Below the pieces are notes generated by a model. It was not told where the DNA came from. It saw nothing but the letters and a program-made list of their open reading frames with translations, and ran no database searches. A stretch of DNA of 64,000 nucleotides from Rhizobium sp. NXC14 (GTDB taxonomy: Bacteria > Pseudomonadota > Alphaproteobacteria > Rhizobiales > Rhizobiaceae), in NCBI RefSeq assembly GCF_002117485.1, contig NZ_CP021030.1:2111001-2175000 (forward strand), read 5' to 3'. Shown here piece by piece: positions 32,803 to 39,454 of this stretch. Position 1 is the stretch's first letter; each line of letters begins with the position of its first letter. The position numbers were made by a program, and so were the translations under genes.

Positions 32803-33248
32803 TTTAACCAGCCCGGCCGGTATCGGAAACCGGTCCTCAAAATCGAGAGTTAAAAGGCAGCCACGCGGAAGACGAAGTGATCCCGTCAGATCAATCGGGC
32901 TGTGAAGGGAGAAAAAACCGCTTATCGCGCGCGCTAGGGGCGAGCCGCGAATGGATATGACCTAGCGTCGGGACATACCGCACGGGAAGGCTTCGATGAT
33001 TGCTGATGTCATTCAACGCCTCCCTTATGTTCGATCTGAAGCGGTAGCGTTTTGTAGCGAAGCAATTCGCCCTTGCCAAGAGGGAATTTACAACCCTACG
33101 GAAAGTGATGCGAAAACGACACAATTCGAAGACTGGGAAAATTCGTGCGCGCTGAGGGTCGCGAGCCGGATCACGTCGAGGCGCAACGCCCGATCGTCAA
33201 GATGTCGCCCTCCTGATGCGCCAAACCCCTGAACGGCGAACCGGTCTT
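32803..33248. other. Intergenic, at most a gene remnant
   Basis: No intact gene is supported. A plus-strand frame ending at a TGA near 33215 reads FVRAEGREPDHVEAQRPIVK without a good start and with a stop about 50 codons or fewer upstream, so it may be the tail of a lost gene. The ABC exporter promoter should lie near 32803-32900. Nothing else is seen. Confidence 0.35.
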
Positions 33249-33434
33249 TCAATAGCTGCACGAGCGAGCATTGCTGGGCCTGAAGCCGCCCGCGCAGGCC
33301 GGGTTCCTCGAAGTATCCCGCTGATACTGAAAATCCTCCCGGTCCTGCCTCGATGGCGAGGTGTTACAGGAAGACATGAGCGTGGACAAACCGATCATCG
33401 CGCCGGTTGCGACCATTGTGAGGAATCGGGTCAT
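33249..33434 (-). CDS. Small predicted lipoprotein (61 aa)
   Basis: Starts MTRFLTMVATGAMIGLSTLM and continues SSCNTSPSRQDREDF. This is a short positively charged start, a hydrophobic helix, and a lipobox-like LMSSC with Cys at about residue 23. The mature part is only about 38 residues with two more cysteines. AGGAGAAG lies 5-12 bases before the ATG, supporting translation. No family is recognised. It is likely an outer- or inner-membrane-anchored small lipoprotein. Confidence 0.55.
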   Translation of the reverse strand: MTRFLTMVATGAMIGLSTLMSSCNTSPSRQDREDFQYQRDTSRNPACAGGFRPSNARSCSY

Positions 33435-33651
33435 CTAAGCTTCTCCTGAGGTTTGTCTCGGCAATCTATCATGCCGATACAACCAGATGCGAGGACCGGC
33501 GAGAGTGATCACGCTGATCTGATAGGAAATGGCTTCGATCATCGAGCGATCGTCCCTCGTGATCCTGCAATCCCGATAATCTGCTCGAGCTATTCTGCGA
33601 TTATGGAAGGAAGTTCATAGTGTTCTCTAGCGAACTAATCGCGATTTCGCC

Positions 33652-33680
33652 TTGAACAAATCGGTGATTTTCAGTAATAT
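33652..33680 (+). promoter_or_regulatory. Predicted sigma-70 promoter for the DUF982 gene
   Basis: TTGAAC (33652-33657) and TAATAT (33675-33680) are separated by 17 bp, 36 bases before the ATG at 33717. The surrounding sequence is unusually AT-rich for the window. It is predicted from consensus only. Confidence 0.5.
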
Positions 33681-33716
33681 TGTTCCATAAAAAAGTAATA
33701 TAAATGGGAGGTTACT

Positions 33717-33998
33717 ATGTCGGAAGCTCGGTTCGAGCCGGTTTTTCTTCATCGTCAGCATTTCGTCGCCGAGATCAAAAGTCTTGACGAAATCTTCGAT
33801 TTTCTGGATGAGTGGCCGCAGGACAAGCGAGGTCTGGCATATGACACTCTGCTGAAGGCGTGCAGGGATACCGCCAAGGGGGCATTTCCTCTCAGCGCCG
33901 CGCGCGAGAATTTCCGCCGTTTTCTGAAGATGTCGGGCATGCTCGACAGCGGCCCCAAATTCGAGGGGATGGGCGATCGAAACGTCGGCAATGCTTGA
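33717..33998 (+). CDS. DUF982 domain protein
   Basis: Small 93-residue protein of the DUF982 family, which is greatly expanded in Rhizobiaceae and of unknown function. Family pattern: FEPVFLHRQHFVAEIKSLDE, then IFDFLDEWPQDKRGLAYDTL with the conserved WP, then ACRDTAKGAFPLSAARENFR. GGGAGG lies 5 bases before the ATG, and a good promoter is predicted at 33652-33680. A second DUF982 gene lies at 35380. Confidence 0.85.
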   Translation: MSEARFEPVFLHRQHFVAEIKSLDEIFDFLDEWPQDKRGLAYDTLLKACRDTAKGAFPLSAARENFRRFLKMSGMLDSGPKFEGMGDRNVGNA

Positions 33999-34159
33999 AG
34001 AGCCACGTCTGTTCGCGACGATCTGAGCTGGCGTGCTGCCACGTCATAAGCGGCGCGTCCCGAATCTCCGGTCATAACCGACCGCGGCGCCGCGGAATGC
34101 CGCAACAGTCTCAGCGGATTTCACCGGCTCTATGCGCGTCGCCCCCGTCGCGACGCGCT

Positions 34160-34987
34160 TTAGCCAAGGCTGGCACCCGCCCAATCGCAGCGGAAGACCA
34201 GCACGGGCTTCGAAAATCCCTTGATGCGCCGGCGCGTCGCGTGGGCAAAGAGGTCGCCGGCGCCAAATTCCCGGAATATATTCTCCGACACGAGGATCTG
34301 GTCACTGGCTGCGGCCGCGCAGAGGCGGGCTGCGAGCTGCACGGTGGAGCCGAAGAGGTCGTTGCTGTCCTCGACCGGCTCGCCGCAATCGAGCCCGATG
34401 CGAACATGGATCGGCTCGGCCTTGCTGCCGTTGTAATGCTGGAATTCCTGCTGGATCGCCATGGCGCATTCGACGGCTGCGGTCGTCTCCGCGAAGGCGG
34501 CCATGATGCCGTCGCCGGTGTGCTTCACTTCGCGGCCGGAATTTTTGCCGAGGCACCGGCGCACGATCGCGTCATGCGCCCTGACCAGCTCCGTCCCCAT
34601 GCGGTCGCCGAGGCGCGCCGTCATCTCGGTCGAGCCGACAATATCGGTAAACAGGATCGCCCGGTGGCCAGGATCCATCCGCGGCGCGGATTGGCCCGGC
34701 GCCGGATCGGGGTCATTGATGCGACCGAGAAAGGCCTCGACAGCCGACAGAGCCACCTCGACGACCTCATTGGCGACGAAACCGTGCGCTTCGCGATGTA
34801 CGCAGTGGACGGTTTCGACATCGGGCGCATCCACCAGACAGAAGGCCGTACCGCGCCGCTCGTCGAACCAATAAGTCAGAAACTTGACGCCGTATCGATC
34901 CTGAATGTCGATATCCATGCGATGCGCCTGGGCAACCTCGGCGGCTGACGTTCCTTCGAGGTAGTGCCGGTCCATGAAGATAGGCAT
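34160..34987 (-). CDS. DUF4242 - class III nucleotide cyclase fusion
   Basis: A 275-residue fusion. Residues 1-80 match the small DUF4242 family (IFMDRHYLEGTSAAEVAQAH; VKFLTYWFDERRGTAFCLVD). Residues about 105-265 are a cyclase domain with metal Asp115 (LFTDIVGST), Lys155 and Asp159 (VKHTGDGIMAAF), Asp210 (NDLFGS) and Arg221. The transition-state Asn is replaced by Gln217 (STVQLAARLC), so activity may be low or altered. DUF4242 proteins are related to nickel-binding SCO4226. No membrane segment is seen; GGGAGG precedes the start. Confidence 0.85.
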   Translation of the reverse strand: MPIFMDRHYLEGTSAAEVAQAHRMDIDIQDRYGVKFLTYWFDERRGTAFCLVDAPDVETVHCVHREAHGFVANEVVEVALSAVEAFLGRINDPDPAPGQSAPRMDPGHRAILFTDIVGSTEMTARLGDRMGTELVRAHDAIVRRCLGKNSGREVKHTGDGIMAAFAETTAAVECAMAIQQEFQHYNGSKAEPIHVRIGLDCGEPVEDSNDLFGSTVQLAARLCAAAASDQILVSENIFREFGAGDLFAHATRRRIKGFSKPVLVFRCDWAGASLG

Positions 34988-35379
34988 CGCGCGTCCTCCC
35001 AGATCCGCCGCGTGCGAGAGATGGCATTGTACGATCTGGATTCATTCCCGTCCACCTTCGGGACAATCAATGCCTGATCGTTGCCAGGCGTTGCTTCCGA
35101 GAAGGCAACGCGTTGCTGCACGCCCGATAGAATATGCATGGATATTGGTGATTTTAATGAGTGGGTGTAATGAGTTCAGTCTGATATTTACCATAATCGG
35201 TCGTTTAATGCTGATAGCGAGAGTTCCGGAACCCCTCGAGAAGCTTCAGACGTTTCCCGTTTCAAGCGTCGCCTGCCGGATCCCGCCGGGAGAGACGTGT
35301 CTTTCACGGTCATGGTGCCAAGGATCGAAGGCCGCTGCCAACGGCATGCTAATTGCAAAGTATCGGTTAGCTCGCCGAA
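34988..35379. other. Intergenic, no supported gene
   Basis: Between the divergent cyclase and the DUF982 gene. The middle (about 35135-35220) is AT-rich and probably holds promoters for both. Open frames on either strand lack ribosome-binding sites or recognisable features. No repeat or RNA was identified. Confidence 0.4.
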
Positions 35380-35658
35380 ATGAGGAAAAGCTGTAGCAAA
35401 GTGAGACAGACGGCAAATTTTCGACCGGTAGGCCTGGCCTCCATGGGGCTCGGCCATTATGCCGTTATCAACTCAGTGTGGGATGCCGCGCGAACGCTGC
35501 TCCGTGACTGGCCGGTGGATGACGGCGAAGAATATTTCGAAGCGGTCAAGGCCTGCCTGGATGCGATTACCGGCGATCTCTCGCCGGATCATGTGCGCGC
35601 CGTCTTCATCAGGGCCGCGCAGGAGGCGGGCATCGCCGTCATAGAAGCCGCCGACTGA
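35380..35658 (+). CDS. DUF982 domain protein
   Basis: Second DUF982-family protein, up to 92 residues: FRPVGLASMGLGHYAVINSV, then WDAARTLLRDWPVDDGEEYF with the conserved WP, then FIRAAQEAGIAVIEAAD. Function unknown. The start is uncertain: ATG 35380 has no good ribosome-binding site, and GTG 35401 gives a protein beginning at RQTANFRPV, closer to family length. It is not adjacent to a recognisable partner; the LexA-box operon begins about 100 bases downstream. Confidence 0.8.
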   Translation: MRKSCSKVRQTANFRPVGLASMGLGHYAVINSVWDAARTLLRDWPVDDGEEYFEAVKACLDAITGDLSPDHVRAVFIRAAQEAGIAVIEAAD

Positions 35659-35725
35659 CCAGCGGCCGCATTCTGACCAGCGGCGCATCCTAGTTCCTGT
35701 TTCAAAGACACACTCGTGGTCGCGC

Positions 35726-35769
35726 TTGACTTTTTCAGCTAAAAGTCTAAATTAGAACAAAACAGGAAC
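35726..35769 (+). promoter_or_regulatory. Promoter with LexA (SOS) box
   Basis: TTGACT (35726-35731) and TAAATT (35748-35753) with a 16-bp spacer form a good sigma-70 promoter. Right after it, GAAC (35755-35758), seven bases, and GAAC (35766-35769) make a GAAC-N7-GAAC direct repeat, the exact form of the LexA operator established in alphaproteobacteria including Rhizobium. It ends 13 bases before the ATG at 35783, so LexA bound here would block transcription initiation. Confidence 0.7.
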
Positions 35770-35782
35770 ATTGGAGATGGTC

Positions 35783-35953
35783 ATGACACATACGGAACAG
35801 GTGATCGCCAACGCCCTTGCCCTCGTCGAAGCCTCTCGCGCCGCCCGCGAGCGGGATCAGCAGCGCCGCGCCGCCTGGCAGAAAAAGGTGGAACTCAGCC
35901 GTCCGCTGCCGCCTCTGCCGCGCCCGGTCCAATTGCCGCTGGCGCTGAACTGA
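35783..35953 (+). CDS. Small protein, first gene of a predicted SOS mini-operon (56 aa)
   Basis: Starts MTHTEQVIANALALVEASRA, is strongly helical and Arg/Glu-rich to about residue 40, and ends in a proline-rich tail (SRPLPPLPRPVQLPLALN). No family is recognised. The ATG at 35783 is 7 bases after GGAG; an ATG at 35777 is also in frame. Expression is expected to be induced by DNA damage because the promoter carries a LexA box. The stop overlaps the start of the next gene (TGATG), so the two are translationally coupled. The Pro-Leu tail ending is reminiscent of a protein-docking peptide, but that is speculation. Confidence 0.65.
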   Translation: MTHTEQVIANALALVEASRAARERDQQRRAAWQKKVELSRPLPPLPRPVQLPLALN

Positions 35954-36183
35954 TGCGGCCGGTTTTGAAATCCCGTCAGGCCAAGCCTGATCAGTTGGAA
36001 CCCGATGATGCTTGGGAAGTGGAAGCCGTGCTCGCCTGGCATGACGATGATGCCAAGGCGGCGATCCGTTCGCTGCTCGACGACTGCAAGCATCTGCGCC
36101 GGCAACTGGCGCTGGCCGAACGAGTGATGAGCCGCGGCATGGCGCGCGGCTGGACGCCGCGTTACGAGCGCGACGCGCTCTGA
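35953..36183 (+). CDS. Small protein, second gene of a predicted SOS mini-operon (76 aa)
   Basis: Starts MRPVLKSRQAKPDQLEPDDA and has an acidic centre (VEAVLAWHDDDAKAAIRSLL). A coiled-coil-like helix follows (DDCKHLRRQLALAERVMSRG), then a basic aromatic end (WTPRYERD). Not recognised. Its ATG overlaps the stop of the preceding gene by one base, so it depends on that gene's translation and on the same LexA-box promoter. No other DNA-repair gene is adjacent; the next gene is convergent. Confidence 0.65.
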   Translation: MRPVLKSRQAKPDQLEPDDAWEVEAVLAWHDDDAKAAIRSLLDDCKHLRRQLALAERVMSRGMARGWTPRYERDAL

Positions 36184-36365
36184 TGAAGTCTTCAGCCGCC
36201 CTCTGCCGCGCGGCGGCTTTGGCCGGACCCGTATAGGCTCTGGCCGTGAACTGGCGGCACCGAGGCTGACGAGGTGAAAACCGGAAGCGTTAGCCGCCGG
36301 TCCGACCGCTCGGATGGCCCCCCTGCGGCTCGCTCAGCAGGTTTCAGCATCGTGACGTTCCGCAG

Positions 36366-37862
36366 TCATGCCGCGAGGCCGACCTTGGCGAAATAGGCTT
36401 CCAGCGCTGAAGCGGCGCCGGATGCGACTATGGCACCTATATAGCCATCCGGACGCACGAGCACATGGTCGCCCGGCGTCAGGGCATAGACGCTGCGGAA
36501 ATGCCCGCTTTCATCCAGGAGGTCGCCGCTCCGGCCGACCCTGTGGATGTGCAAACCCTTGCGCGGCGGCACGACTGTCTGGTCGACCTCGTAGCAGAGT
36601 AGAGTCCAATGGGCGCCCCTGAACATGTCGAACAGCCGCCTTGGCTGACCGGCCGCACCGGCGAGCGCGGCATCCGGCGCGCGATCGCCGGCAAGCAGAC
36701 CGCAGCGGCGTTCCGGCTTTTCCAGCGCGACGGAGGATTCGGGATAGCCGATATCGAGCTGATGAACCTCGCGGCCACGTCTGACGTCACCGCGCTTCAG
36801 CGCATCGAGAAGTTTGGTCGCAAGGCCAAGCATCGCCGCGGCAATCGGGCGGCGCTCTTCCTCGTAGCTGTCGAGCAACTGATCGGGGGCTCCGGCGACG
36901 ACCGCAGCCAGTTTCCATCCGAGATTATAGGCATCCTGGACGCTGGTATTGAGGCCCTGGCCGCCGGTCGGCGGATGCGTATGCGCGGCATCGCCGACGA
37001 GAAAGATGCGGCCGAGCCGGTAGCGGTCGGAAAGCCGGGCGTTCATGGTGTAGGCCGAGGCCCAGGAGACCGACTGGACGTCAACATTCTCGCGGCCGGT
37101 GCGTTCCCTCACCAAGGCGGTCAGACCCGCTGCGGATAGGTCGATCTCGCCTTCGAGAGGGATCGGTCCCTGGATCTGGAACAGATCGGTTCCCGCCAGC
37201 GGGCAAAGGGCCAGCTGCCGCTGCATGTCGCCTTCGCCAAAGCGATGCCAGGCGTCGCGATCTAGCCCCGTCAGCGCGACATCGGCGACGATGGCGCGCA
37301 CGCCGAGCGTCTTGCCGGGAAAGCCGATATCCAGCGCGTGGCGTACAACGCTGCGGCCGCCATCGGCGCCAACCAGCCATCGGACGCGAATGGTCTCGTC
37401 ACCGGATTGGCTATTGAGTTGCGCCGTCACGCCCGCCTCGTCCTGTTCGAAACCGATAAGCTCGCAGCCGAATTCCGGCCGGTGTCCCAGCTCGATGAGG
37501 CGCTCGCGCATCACCCTCTCGGTCAGAAACTGCGGCACCATCAGCGGAAGATGATAGGGCTCGGCAGGCGTCGCCTCCTCGCGCACCATGGCGTCGGAGT
37601 CGATAAAGCTTCCGTCGTTGCGATATTCCCGCTGCTTGGGATAGGCGCCGCCGAGCGCGACGATCCGGTCGAGGATACCCATATCCTCGAAGACCTCCTG
37701 CGTTCGCGGCTGAATGCCCTTGCCGCGCGAGCCGCGGAAAGGGTCGTTTAGCTTTTCGATCAGGCGAAAAGATATACCACGGCGCGCCAGCTCGATCGCC
37801 AGCGTCAGCCCGGCTGCGCCGGCCCCTGATATCAGCACGTCGATTGTCGAATTCTGTGTCAT
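36366..37862 (-). CDS. FAD-dependent aromatic monooxygenase under MarR control
   Basis: Class A flavin monooxygenase of 498 residues, similar in build to the gene at 26938. It has the FAD fold (DVLISGAGAAGLTLAIELAR), the DG motif (WLVGADGGRSVVRHALDI), the GD motif (FLVGDAAHTHPPTGGQGLNT) and a C-terminal thioredoxin-like part ending in HVLVRPDGYIGAIVASG. It is likely a ring hydroxylase for a phenolic compound. The ATG at 37862 follows GGAGAAGAC; the in-frame GTG at 37889 is less likely since it lies in the operator. It is divergent from a marR gene with palindromic operators between them. Confidence 0.9.
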   Translation of the reverse strand: MTQNSTIDVLISGAGAAGLTLAIELARRGISFRLIEKLNDPFRGSRGKGIQPRTQEVFEDMGILDRIVALGGAYPKQREYRNDGSFIDSDAMVREEATPAEPYHLPLMVPQFLTERVMRERLIELGHRPEFGCELIGFEQDEAGVTAQLNSQSGDETIRVRWLVGADGGRSVVRHALDIGFPGKTLGVRAIVADVALTGLDRDAWHRFGEGDMQRQLALCPLAGTDLFQIQGPIPLEGEIDLSAAGLTALVRERTGRENVDVQSVSWASAYTMNARLSDRYRLGRIFLVGDAAHTHPPTGGQGLNTSVQDAYNLGWKLAAVVAGAPDQLLDSYEEERRPIAAAMLGLATKLLDALKRGDVRRGREVHQLDIGYPESSVALEKPERRCGLLAGDRAPDAALAGAAGQPRRLFDMFRGAHWTLLCYEVDQTVVPPRKGLHIHRVGRSGDLLDESGHFRSVYALTPGDHVLVRPDGYIGAIVASGAASALEAYFAKVGLAA

Positions 37863-37875
37863 TGTCTTCTCCATA

Positions 37876-37939
37876 TGTGTATTATGCACATAATAGGAGA
37901 ACTCGAAATGCCGTCAACAATAAATGTGCAAAATACACA
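37876..37939. promoter_or_regulatory. Two copies of a MarR-type operator
   Basis: TGTGTATTATGCACA (37876-37890) and TGTGCAAAATACACA (37925-37939) are 15-bp imperfect palindromes of the same pattern, TGTG-Y-A-NNN-T-R-CACA, 49 bp start to start. The first lies between the divergent monooxygenase and marR genes. The second lies inside the first codons of marR. Such TGTG/CACA dyads fit MarR-family operators and predict co-repression of the hydroxylase plus autorepression. Confidence 0.65.
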
Positions 37940-38408
37940 TATATCGGAAAAGCTGCGCGAACTGCATGGGGCTTTGATCGAAATCGTCAGCGTGATGAAC
38001 CGGCCCCAGCGAGACGAGCAGATGGTGCGCGAAGCAGGTATTTCGCTCGATCGCGCCCTGTTTCCGCTGCTGGTGACGGTGGAACGCCTCGGCCCGATCG
38101 GCGTTGTCGAACTCGCCGACCGCGCCGGGCGCGACTACACCACTGTCAGTAGACAGGTCGCCAAGCTGGAGAGCCTGGAGCTGGTCGAGCGTCGGGAAAG
38201 TGCCGCCGACCGTCGCGTGCGCGAGGCTGTCATCAGTCCGAAAGGCAAAGCGATGACGGACCGCATCGACGCCGCGCGCGAGCGGATGGGCCGCGCGATC
38301 TTCGCAAGCTGGGACGAGCACGATTTCAATGAGCTGGTGCGGCTTATGCGAAAATTTGCCAGCGATATCGGCGATAGCGCTGAGGAGCCTCGTGGAGAGG
38401 GCGGCTGA
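37908..38408 (+). CDS. MarR-family transcriptional repressor
   Basis: A 166-residue winged-helix regulator: dimer helices at the ends, HTH in GVVELADRAGRDYTTVSRQV and wing ERRESAADRRVREAVISPKG, both characteristic of MarR. It probably represses the divergent FAD monooxygenase and is relieved by a phenolic ligand. The ATG at 37908 follows AGGAGAA at good spacing. The upstream in-frame ATG at 37875 would start inside the first operator and is not preferred. Confidence 0.9.
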   Translation: MPSTINVQNTHISEKLRELHGALIEIVSVMNRPQRDEQMVREAGISLDRALFPLLVTVERLGPIGVVELADRAGRDYTTVSRQVAKLESLELVERRESAADRRVREAVISPKGKAMTDRIDAARERMGRAIFASWDEHDFNELVRLMRKFASDIGDSAEEPRGEGG

Positions 38409-38436
38409 CGCGGGCGCTCCCACAGGGCCTGCTTCA

Positions 38437-38826
38437 TCAGAATACTTTGGCGGCCGTCACTTCGACTTCCACTAGAAAGTCAGGCCGGGTGAAGCCGCTG
38501 ACGATGATCAGCGTTGAGGCCGGCTTCGGATCCAAGGTATAGCGATCCCGCACCGCCATATAGGCCGGGAAATCGTCGCGTTTCGTCACAAAGGCGGAAA
38601 TGCGGATGACGTCGGCAAAGCTCATCTCGGCCTCGGCGAGAATTGCCTTGATTGCCTCGAAGCAGAGTTCCGCCTGCGCACCGATATCCTCCGGCACGAT
38701 CTCGTCGGGGCCGATGCCGAGCTGACCCGAGGTGACGAGCAGCGAGGCGCCCGGTGGCACCAATAGGCCGTGATTGTAGTGTCCGAACGGCCGGCGGACG
38801 GATGAGGGATTGAAAACCTTCTTCAT
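38437..38826 (-). CDS. RidA/YjgF/Rut-C family protein
   Basis: A 129-residue protein of the RidA superfamily, whose members hydrolyse reactive enamine/imine intermediates or aminoacrylate-like products. Visible are FGHYNHGLLVPPGASLLVTSG, with LGIGPDEIVPEDIGAQ, and the C-terminal STLIIVSGFTRPDFLVEVEV. The usual Arg of the RidA active site appears in the segment FTRPDF. ATG 38826 is used (GGGA 7 bases upstream); 38832 is also possible. It is the last gene of the minus-strand catabolic operon, 46 bases after the flavodoxin-fold gene, and likely detoxifies an imine made in that pathway. Confidence 0.88.
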   Translation of the reverse strand: MKKVFNPSSVRRPFGHYNHGLLVPPGASLLVTSGQLGIGPDEIVPEDIGAQAELCFEAIKAILAEAEMSFADVIRISAFVTKRDDFPAYMAVRDRYTLDPKPASTLIIVSGFTRPDFLVEVEVTAAKVF

Positions 38827-38872
38827 CGGCATTCCCTACTTGGACGAGGATGTCATTGTCGCGGCCGGAGGT

Positions 38873-39454
38873 TCAGTAGCGCTCCATGGCGTTTTTCACC
38901 TTCTCCAGAAACCGCGTCCGGGTTTCCTCAGTGCAGTTGTTCATGTCGTAGTGGGCAAGAAAGGAGACCGGCCGTAGCGGGTTGATCTGGGCTCGCAGCA
39001 CACGCTTGACGATCTTCTTCGGCGGGTTGCCGGCCACGAAGGCACGGAACGGCGTTGCGCCATAAGTCAGAACGGCGGCAAGCTTCCTGATATGGCGCAG
39101 CCGCGATTCCACCTTGCCGTCGACCAGTTCGAACGAGACGCCGGGAAGCCAGACGCGATCAAAATAGCCCTTCAATATTGCCGGGAAGCCAAAATTCCAG
39201 ATCGGCGTGACCAGCACCAGCCCTTCGGCCCGCTTCAGCCGCTCAACATAGGATTTCACCAGCGCGATATTGTCGGGGTAGTCGTGATAGGCGAGCCGGT
39301 CATGCCGGGAGAGAACGGGATCGAAATTCTCGGCGTAGAGATCGCATCCGTCCACGTCATGGCCGGCTTTGCGCAGGCTTTCCAGCGTCTGCTTATAGAG
39401 CGCTTTGCCGTAGCTTTCCTCCACCGGATGCGAATGCAGCACGAGCACCCTCAT
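38873..39454 (-). CDS. Flavodoxin-fold NAD(P)H-dependent oxidoreductase
   Basis: FMN-binding quinone/oxidoreductase-like protein of 193 residues (MdaB/KefF group). It has the phosphate-binding N-terminus VLVLHSHPVEESYGKALYKQ, the central GLVLVTPIWNFGFPAILKGY motif that contacts FMN, and FDRVWLPGVSFELVDGKVES. It overlaps the FAD-oxidase gene by four bases (ATGA), so it is part of the catabolic operon and may supply reduced flavin or recycle NAD(P)H there. The exact reaction is unknown. Confidence 0.88.
   Translation of the reverse strand: MRVLVLHSHPVEESYGKALYKQTLESLRKAGHDVDGCDLYAENFDPVLSRHDRLAYHDYPDNIALVKSYVERLKRAEGLVLVTPIWNFGFPAILKGYFDRVWLPGVSFELVDGKVESRLRHIRKLAAVLTYGATPFRAFVAGNPPKKIVKRVLRAQINPLRPVSFLAHYDMNNCTEETRTRFLEKVKNAMERY

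Follow-up and report, generated by a model that had tools for sequence, protein, structure and literature searches.

We describe a two-gene operon in Rhizobium sp. NXC14 that, judging from its sequence and those of its relatives, is very likely repressed by LexA and induced by DNA damage, and whose first product, the microprotein ORF1, likely binds the beta sliding clamp through its C-terminal tail. On balance, we lean toward an interpretation in which ORF1 would compete for the clamp cleft after damage, with the second product, ORF2, as an accessory. The operon lies in a window of 64,000 nucleotides (C1:2111001-2175000), the whole stretch of DNA that was analyzed, in a genome of 6.69 Mb and four contigs.

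The initial annotation had placed a promoter, an exact GAAC-N7-GAAC box and two overlapping genes for proteins of 56 and 76 residues here, and its coordinates were confirmed (Table 1). The ORF1 stop and ORF2 start share one base (TGATG), a single promoter and box serve both genes, and that promoter is the only promoter-like site between 35600 and 36420 (mean of 0.1 in shuffles). The closest named locus is that of Rhizobium aethiopicum SEMIA 4074 (ORF2, 92%; DNA identity, 94% over 33210-39190), and the pair keeps the same surroundings in this species, R. johnstonii 3841 and R. hidalgonense. Neighbors of the operon in the window encode an SCO4226-like domain fused to an adenylate/guanylate cyclase domain (34160-34987, minus strand) and a DUF982 protein (35380-35658, plus strand).

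Table 1. Features of the ORF1-ORF2 operon, in window positions
Feature	Position	Strand	Basis or remark
-35 element TTGACT	35726-35731	+	part of promoter TTGACT-16-TAAATT (35726-35753)
-10-like element TAAATT	35748-35753	+	16-base spacer after -35
LexA (SOS) box GAACAAAACAGGAAC, exact GAAC-N7-GAAC	35755-35769	+	pattern and conservation at ORF1 loci
GGAG, likely ribosome-binding site of ORF1	35773-35776	+	read from sequence
ORF1, 56 aa, predicted clamp-binding microprotein	35783-35953	+	homologs, model, dN/dS
ORF1 predicted helix, residues 3-38	35789-35896	+	AlphaFold2 model
QLPLAL, ORF1 residues 50-55, putative hexameric beta-clamp-binding motif	35930-35947	+	homolog conservation; PMC11139829, PMC4564189 (both in part)
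ORF2, 76 aa, multicopy SOS-box-associated family with C-terminal GxTRGWxP motif	35953-36183	+	
ORF2 residues 62-69, GMARGWTP, most conserved stretch of the family	36136-36159	+	47 sequences

The alphaproteobacterial LexA operator is given as GAAC-N7-GAAC (GTTC-N7-GTTC) in the accessible parts of PMC3323433 and PMC9578287, and regulon members carry it at the promoter, conserved upstream of orthologs, as is the case here. A box precedes 26 of 29 ORF1 loci, 28 to 49 bases before the match, with no reversed motif at any of the 29; the boxless loci, L140, L144 and L145, match only weakly or in part. One of them, L144 (G071:C4:152974-153198), has adjacent ORF1 and ORF2 matches, both partial and boxless, and a tail changed to QLSLKW, and is apparently a decayed copy. 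Among ORF2 loci of the Rhizobiaceae, 39/50 have an exact box within 350 bp upstream (reversed motif, 0/50). Eight of the 11 others have an AT-core box 356 to 1583 bp upstream, two have less than 400 bp of flank and L047 has no AT-core box in 1500 bp upstream. The box also stands upstream at 16 of 25 order-wide ORF2 loci (within 400 bp; reversed, 0/25; 30 loci returned, minus five Rhizobiaceae repeats), at 68/80 named loci (the best 80 of 111; reversed, 1/80) and on all 26 viral contigs with enough flank (reversed, 0/26; two of 28 skipped). A near box is missing at 12 named loci; in 10 of these, an AT-core box lies no more than 1 kb away, and the other two have short flanks.

The promoter around the box is conserved as well. 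TTGAC occurs no more than 45 bases upstream of the box at 24/26 boxed ORF1 loci versus 0/26 in an equal downstream stretch, and the -35 element stands at nearly fixed distances from the box. At ORF2 loci, TTGAC lies upstream of the box in 32/39 cases in the Rhizobiaceae and in only 5/14 distant ones, and in none of the equal downstream stretches; in 21 of the 39 ORF2 promoters, a -10-like CATAAT or CAAAAT sits inside the box itself. An SOS-type promoter is thus conserved across genera. The proposal that LexA controls this small gene pair, for which absence of the box upstream of orthologous pairs had been named as counterevidence, is strongly supported by the conserved box and the surrounding promoter geometry.

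Taken by itself, the plain box pattern carries little weight: GAAC-N7-GAAC occurs five times in the window versus 1.65 expected (a count that 4 of 100 shuffles attain) and 183 times in the genome versus 149 for the reversed pattern. A narrower AT-rich pattern, GAACAWWNNDRGAAC, picked after the boxes of relatives had been seen, has 16 sites in the genome, the box of this operon among them, versus 0 reversed. The genes at these sites include uvrA and ssb (with one box common to both), those for an MGMT-type methyltransferase, a comM-type Mg-chelatase protein, a UvrD-like helicase and a radical SAM protein, a Pol III alpha gene (preceded by two boxes), an ATP-dependent DNA ligase gene (its box shared with an ORF2 relative), two genes in imuA position adjoining IMS genes, the ORF1-ORF2 operon and three other ORF2 relatives. 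At three sites (C1:823934, C1:3028001 and C4:723402), no known SOS gene was recognized. In Caulobacter, comM and dnaE are reported to be SOS-regulated (PMC3323433, in part).

Several of these sites have features of their own. The two SOS-like boxes upstream of the Pol III alpha gene lie at C1:1742105 and C1:1742317 (L147 and L148). At C1:3865017-3866733 (L153 and L061), the ORF2 relative stands 1.5 kb from the SOS box with a transposase-like gene between them, and the box also serves the divergent ligase gene. The MGMT-type methyltransferase (L010:1564-2154; box at C1:285635) ends in AQQSLGF and the radical SAM protein (L028:275-1429; box at C1:924861) in VQLSLL, and both ends resemble clamp-binding tails.

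ORF1 is a protein-coding gene under strong purifying selection. Across 27 equal-length orthologs, pS is 0.296 and pN 0.009 (dN/dS about 0.024); a narrower set of 11 sequences gives 0.016, residues 41-56 in the 27 orthologs give 0.006, and codons 50-55 show synonymous changes only (pS 0.354), all dN/dS figures being pairwise sums and mutually non-independent. This codon pattern rules out a non-coding leader. ORF1 matches were found in 24 of 199 Rhizobiaceae genomes and 12 of 109 genera, one of the 24 (G057) matching only in part and lacking both box and motif, and in 5/297 genomes of an order-wide sample, all of them Rhizobiaceae; genome presence counts are lower bounds, as only first-look candidates were scored. 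ORF1 is therefore dispensable for most of these bacteria.

As the initial annotation had it, the two proteins belong to no known family: neither has a match above the cut-off in Pfam or NCBIfam or any match in PADLOC, where the NCBIfam search covered both window proteins and 17 rows of the ORF1 alignment and the PADLOC search the two window proteins. Profile searches of the PDB gave no significant match, and no known partner domain was found for ORF1. A sub-threshold Imm63 match to ORF1 (E about 0.04-0.05) was judged to be chance.

The hydrophobic cleft of the beta clamp (DnaN) is the site used by Pol III alpha, by Pol IV and by Hda, an AAA+ protein. ORF1 ends in QLPLAL-N, which fits the hexameric clamp motif QLxLxL. 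A profile search found 180 homologs, and among the 120 listed, 110 have Q[LM]xLxL within the last 16 residues, with a single residue following it in 75, whereas shuffled versions of the same tails yield 1.9 matches on average and 8 at most (1000 rounds). The published definition is Q-aliphatic-x-[L/M]-[F/L] or Q-aliphatic-x-[L/M]-x-[F/L] (PMC11139829, in part), and three of the ten non-matching homologs still fit it: P0113 (QLSLDF), P0166 (QLKMDL) and P0148 (QLSLLL, further in); the remaining seven are diverged or truncated. Q[LM]xLx[LF] is present at 26/26 boxed genomic ORF1 loci and absent from the three boxless ones. Across an alignment of 60 sequences, Q50 never changes and L53 and L55 hardly do; position 51 holds L or M, and 52 and 54 are free to vary. 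The motif is kept while identity to the window ORF1 drops to 38%. A clamp ligand is expected to carry Q-aliphatic-x-[L/M]-x-[F/L], conserved, in a flexible region, which is what residues 50-55 of ORF1 present.

Known ligands give this motif a precedent. In the portions of the sources consulted, the Hda peptide PAQLSLPLYL binds the clamp at 0.38 uM (PMC11139829) and the C-terminal QLVLGL of Escherichia coli Pol IV sits in the clamp cleft (PMC4564189). The Pol IV of the Rhizobium genome (C4:721858) ends in QLRLAL; the second DinB-type gene (C1:1748293) lacks an end of this kind. A single DnaN was found in the genome; among solved clamps it most resembles 6deg, 5wce and 6izo, and it keeps TDGHRLA and MPMR, which we take to be segments of the cleft. 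Clamp-like tails follow 39 of 198 SOS boxes versus 2 in controls (one of them a Pol IV tail), a count that is biased and no independent proof because many loci were fetched through ORF1. The Pro/Leu-rich tail had been suggested to be an interaction element, which fits a strongly selected clamp motif, and we consider clamp binding by ORF1 likely from these sequence patterns.

ORF1 would be more than a bare competitor peptide, since its helix is conserved too. The AlphaFold2 model has this one helix followed by an extended tail (mean pLDDT 90.4), and the 60-sequence alignment keeps V7, I8, A11, V15, R22-E23-R24 and R28-R29.

The multicopy family of ORF2 extends across Hyphomicrobiales, plasmids and phages. 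It occurs in 37/199 Rhizobiaceae genomes and 21/109 genera, in some genomes in several copies, and its profile matches 53/297 genomes of the order; relatives are present in 113 plasmid records, of which 59 are typed as conjugative, in the two phages phi2LM21 and Rivra and in 28 IMG/VR contigs. An alignment of 47 of 50 loci (leaving out L060 and L067, which have short open frames, and one duplicate) has G62 invariant and R65, G66 and W67 at 90% or more, and the family consensus ends VLAxHxGDARAAIxTLLxDxxHLRxQLALAxxAMSxGxTRGWxP. A crude dN/dS over the last 60 codons is 0.25 (29 sequences, stop-aligned, at least one distant relative included, gaps untreated). The predicted structure is a helical hairpin (residues 19-29 and 34-58; mean pLDDT 81.4), in line with the coiled-coil-like helix noted earlier, and a Foldseek search of this model against the PDB gave no match. 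Sub-threshold hits of ORF2 to ISN1 (E 0.15) and of 3/47 members each to GTA_holin and PHROG holin 3427 were judged to be chance. UBA/CUE profiles likewise fell below the cut-off (UBA_HYPK, 4/47, best E 0.0076; UBA_HOIP, 4/47, 0.0035; CUE, 1/47, 0.066), and the window ORF2 itself matched none of them.

In a minority of cases, an ORF2 relative is visibly the first gene of a damage-tolerance operon. Among 101 same-strand proteins downstream of ORF2 relatives (99 of the 179 listed, from 47 hand-picked loci, plus two zinc-ribbon-like genes), we found 14 SRAP, nine SNase, one S24 and one IMS protein. A start pattern for SRAP, revised after a first version that was unfit for these SRAPs had matched 0/110, occurs on the same strand downstream in 12/110 cases, and in none on the same strand upstream or on the other strand. 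SRAP genes follow ORF2 relatives in a phage and a plasmid (L111 and L114) and on the viral contigs L250, L252, L258, L260, L261 and L271, and at L237:3001-4947 an ORF2 relative heads umuD- and umuC-like genes (S24 and IMS), with an SOS box 404 bp upstream. Small Cys-rich, zinc-ribbon-like proteins stand directly after ORF2 relatives at L146:1735-2082, L035, L037, L044, L066 and L076, and also at L026:951-1271; the two examples scanned had no Pfam name among those listed.

ORF1 and ORF2 share genomes more than they share loci. An ORF2 match is present in 21/24 genomes with an ORF1 match (Fisher p 1.6e-15, uncorrected for relatedness), but an ORF2 relative stands directly downstream of ORF1 at only 9/26 boxed loci (eight by script and L119), a pattern easier to reconcile with a shared pathway than with an obligate toxin-antitoxin pair. 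What ties ORF2 to the clamp is solely the shared operon.

ORF1 could alternatively be a recruiter and not a competitor, its helix binding a partner (ORF2, a translesion or repair protein, or DNA) that the tail would bridge to the clamp at damage. We regard this as possible though somewhat unlikely: the helix keeps its conserved residues separate from the tail, co-occurrence with ORF2 is high and relatives of ORF2 adjoin SRAP, nuclease and umuDC-like genes, but 17/26 boxed ORF1 loci have no ORF2 relative directly downstream and the searches found no known partner domain. It is improbable that ORF1 is a clamp-poisoning toxin, blocking replication like SocB, with ORF2 as its antitoxin. Clamp-targeting toxins exist, SocB and RipA in the consulted text of PMC12795458 among them, and these are two small overlapping genes. 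Yet a toxin and its antitoxin should be kept together, and the pairing here is not obligate: besides the ORF1 loci just mentioned, 43/80 named and 24/26 viral ORF2 relatives have no ORF1-like gene just upstream. One promoter and box for both genes also speaks against this arrangement.

An SOS division inhibitor of the SidA/YneA kind is more improbable still. Small SOS genes elsewhere have such a role, as with SidA, a small inner membrane protein described as acting on FtsW (PMC9578287, in part), but no hydrophobic membrane span is seen on reading the sequences of ORF1 and ORF2, and the feature under selection is the clamp motif. Among the roles that the initial annotation had listed for SOS-controlled tiny genes, that of a cofactor of the replication or repair machinery is therefore favored by the clamp motif, and that of a division inhibitor less so. 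A chance box before spurious reading frames, with no functional SOS operon, is already contradicted. In its favor are the frequency of the plain box and the choice of the narrower pattern after family boxes had been seen, but conservation of the box upstream of relatives makes it untenable, and the conserved box-promoter spacing, the low dN/dS of ORF1 and synteny in three Rhizobium species also speak against it.

Known systems resemble parts of this operon. Pol IV (DinB) shares the hexameric QLxLxL at the extreme C-terminus but is a polymerase, whereas ORF1 has 56 residues, no enzyme domain and one residue after the motif. Hda has a high-affinity hexameric motif (QLSLPL) in a flexible terminus (PMC11139829, in part), N-terminal where that of ORF1 is C-terminal; a PF00308 search of the Rhizobium genome, which returned one DnaA and four IS-type ATPase-like copies, did not find the Hda motif. 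The nearest printed parallels, in the parts of the literature available, are SocB of Caulobacter and RipA of Streptococcus pneumoniae, set beside ORF1 by description only: both are described as targeting the clamp's hydrophobic pocket, as we propose for ORF1, but are toxins with antitoxin partners (PMC12795458), and the available text describes SocB as inducing SOS and not as being LexA-controlled. SidA and YneA (PMC9578287, in part) are tiny SOS-controlled genes like ORF1 and ORF2, as are SosA and DinQ, but the accessible descriptions present these four as division inhibitors or membrane peptides, whereas ORF1 and ORF2 look soluble. A PMC search, with most subscription papers and all supplements out of reach, retrieved no LexA-controlled free-standing clamp-binding microprotein and no description of either family. 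The SOS box and the clamp motif are of known kinds, and what appears new is the two protein families and the combination of box and motif in a putative free-standing clamp-binding microprotein under LexA control.

Returning to ORF1 as a competitor, we infer the following course of events. RecA would inactivate LexA, whose cleavage would induce the operon, and ORF1 would accumulate. Its flexible tail would dock in the hydrophobic cleft of the clamp and compete for it. This would weaken the hold of the replicative polymerase on clamps at damaged forks, and either the fork would slow or clamps would become available to translesion synthesis and repair. Dimerization or the binding of a second partner may be the role of the conserved helix, and ORF2, on the same mRNA but from a separate, widespread family of SOS small proteins, is probably an accessory in the same response. 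On this view, the operon may provide damaged replication forks with a built-in brake or a hand-over switch.

In eukaryotes, p21 (CDKN1A) is a damage-induced small protein with a C-terminal clamp-binding peptide (PIP box) that acts on PCNA. The bacterial clamp-binding motif (CBM) and the PIP box are described as parallel motifs (PMC11139829, in part). Although p21 is unrelated to ORF1, so that the likeness is one of logic only and not of ancestry, we tentatively suggest that the operon could be a Rhizobiaceae counterpart of it, in which an SOS-induced free-standing microprotein evicts the replicative polymerase from the clamp, co-expressed with ORF2 from a mobile family.

SOS genes without an assigned function are a long-standing gap outside model species, and comparative evidence here ties two undescribed families to LexA. 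For ORF1, the prediction is specific and can be probed by mutation: its hexapeptide is expected to bind the replication clamp. If this is true, bacteria would govern access to the clamp after DNA damage by a dedicated induced peptide, beyond competition between polymerases, which would bear on damage-induced mutagenesis in nitrogen-fixing symbionts.
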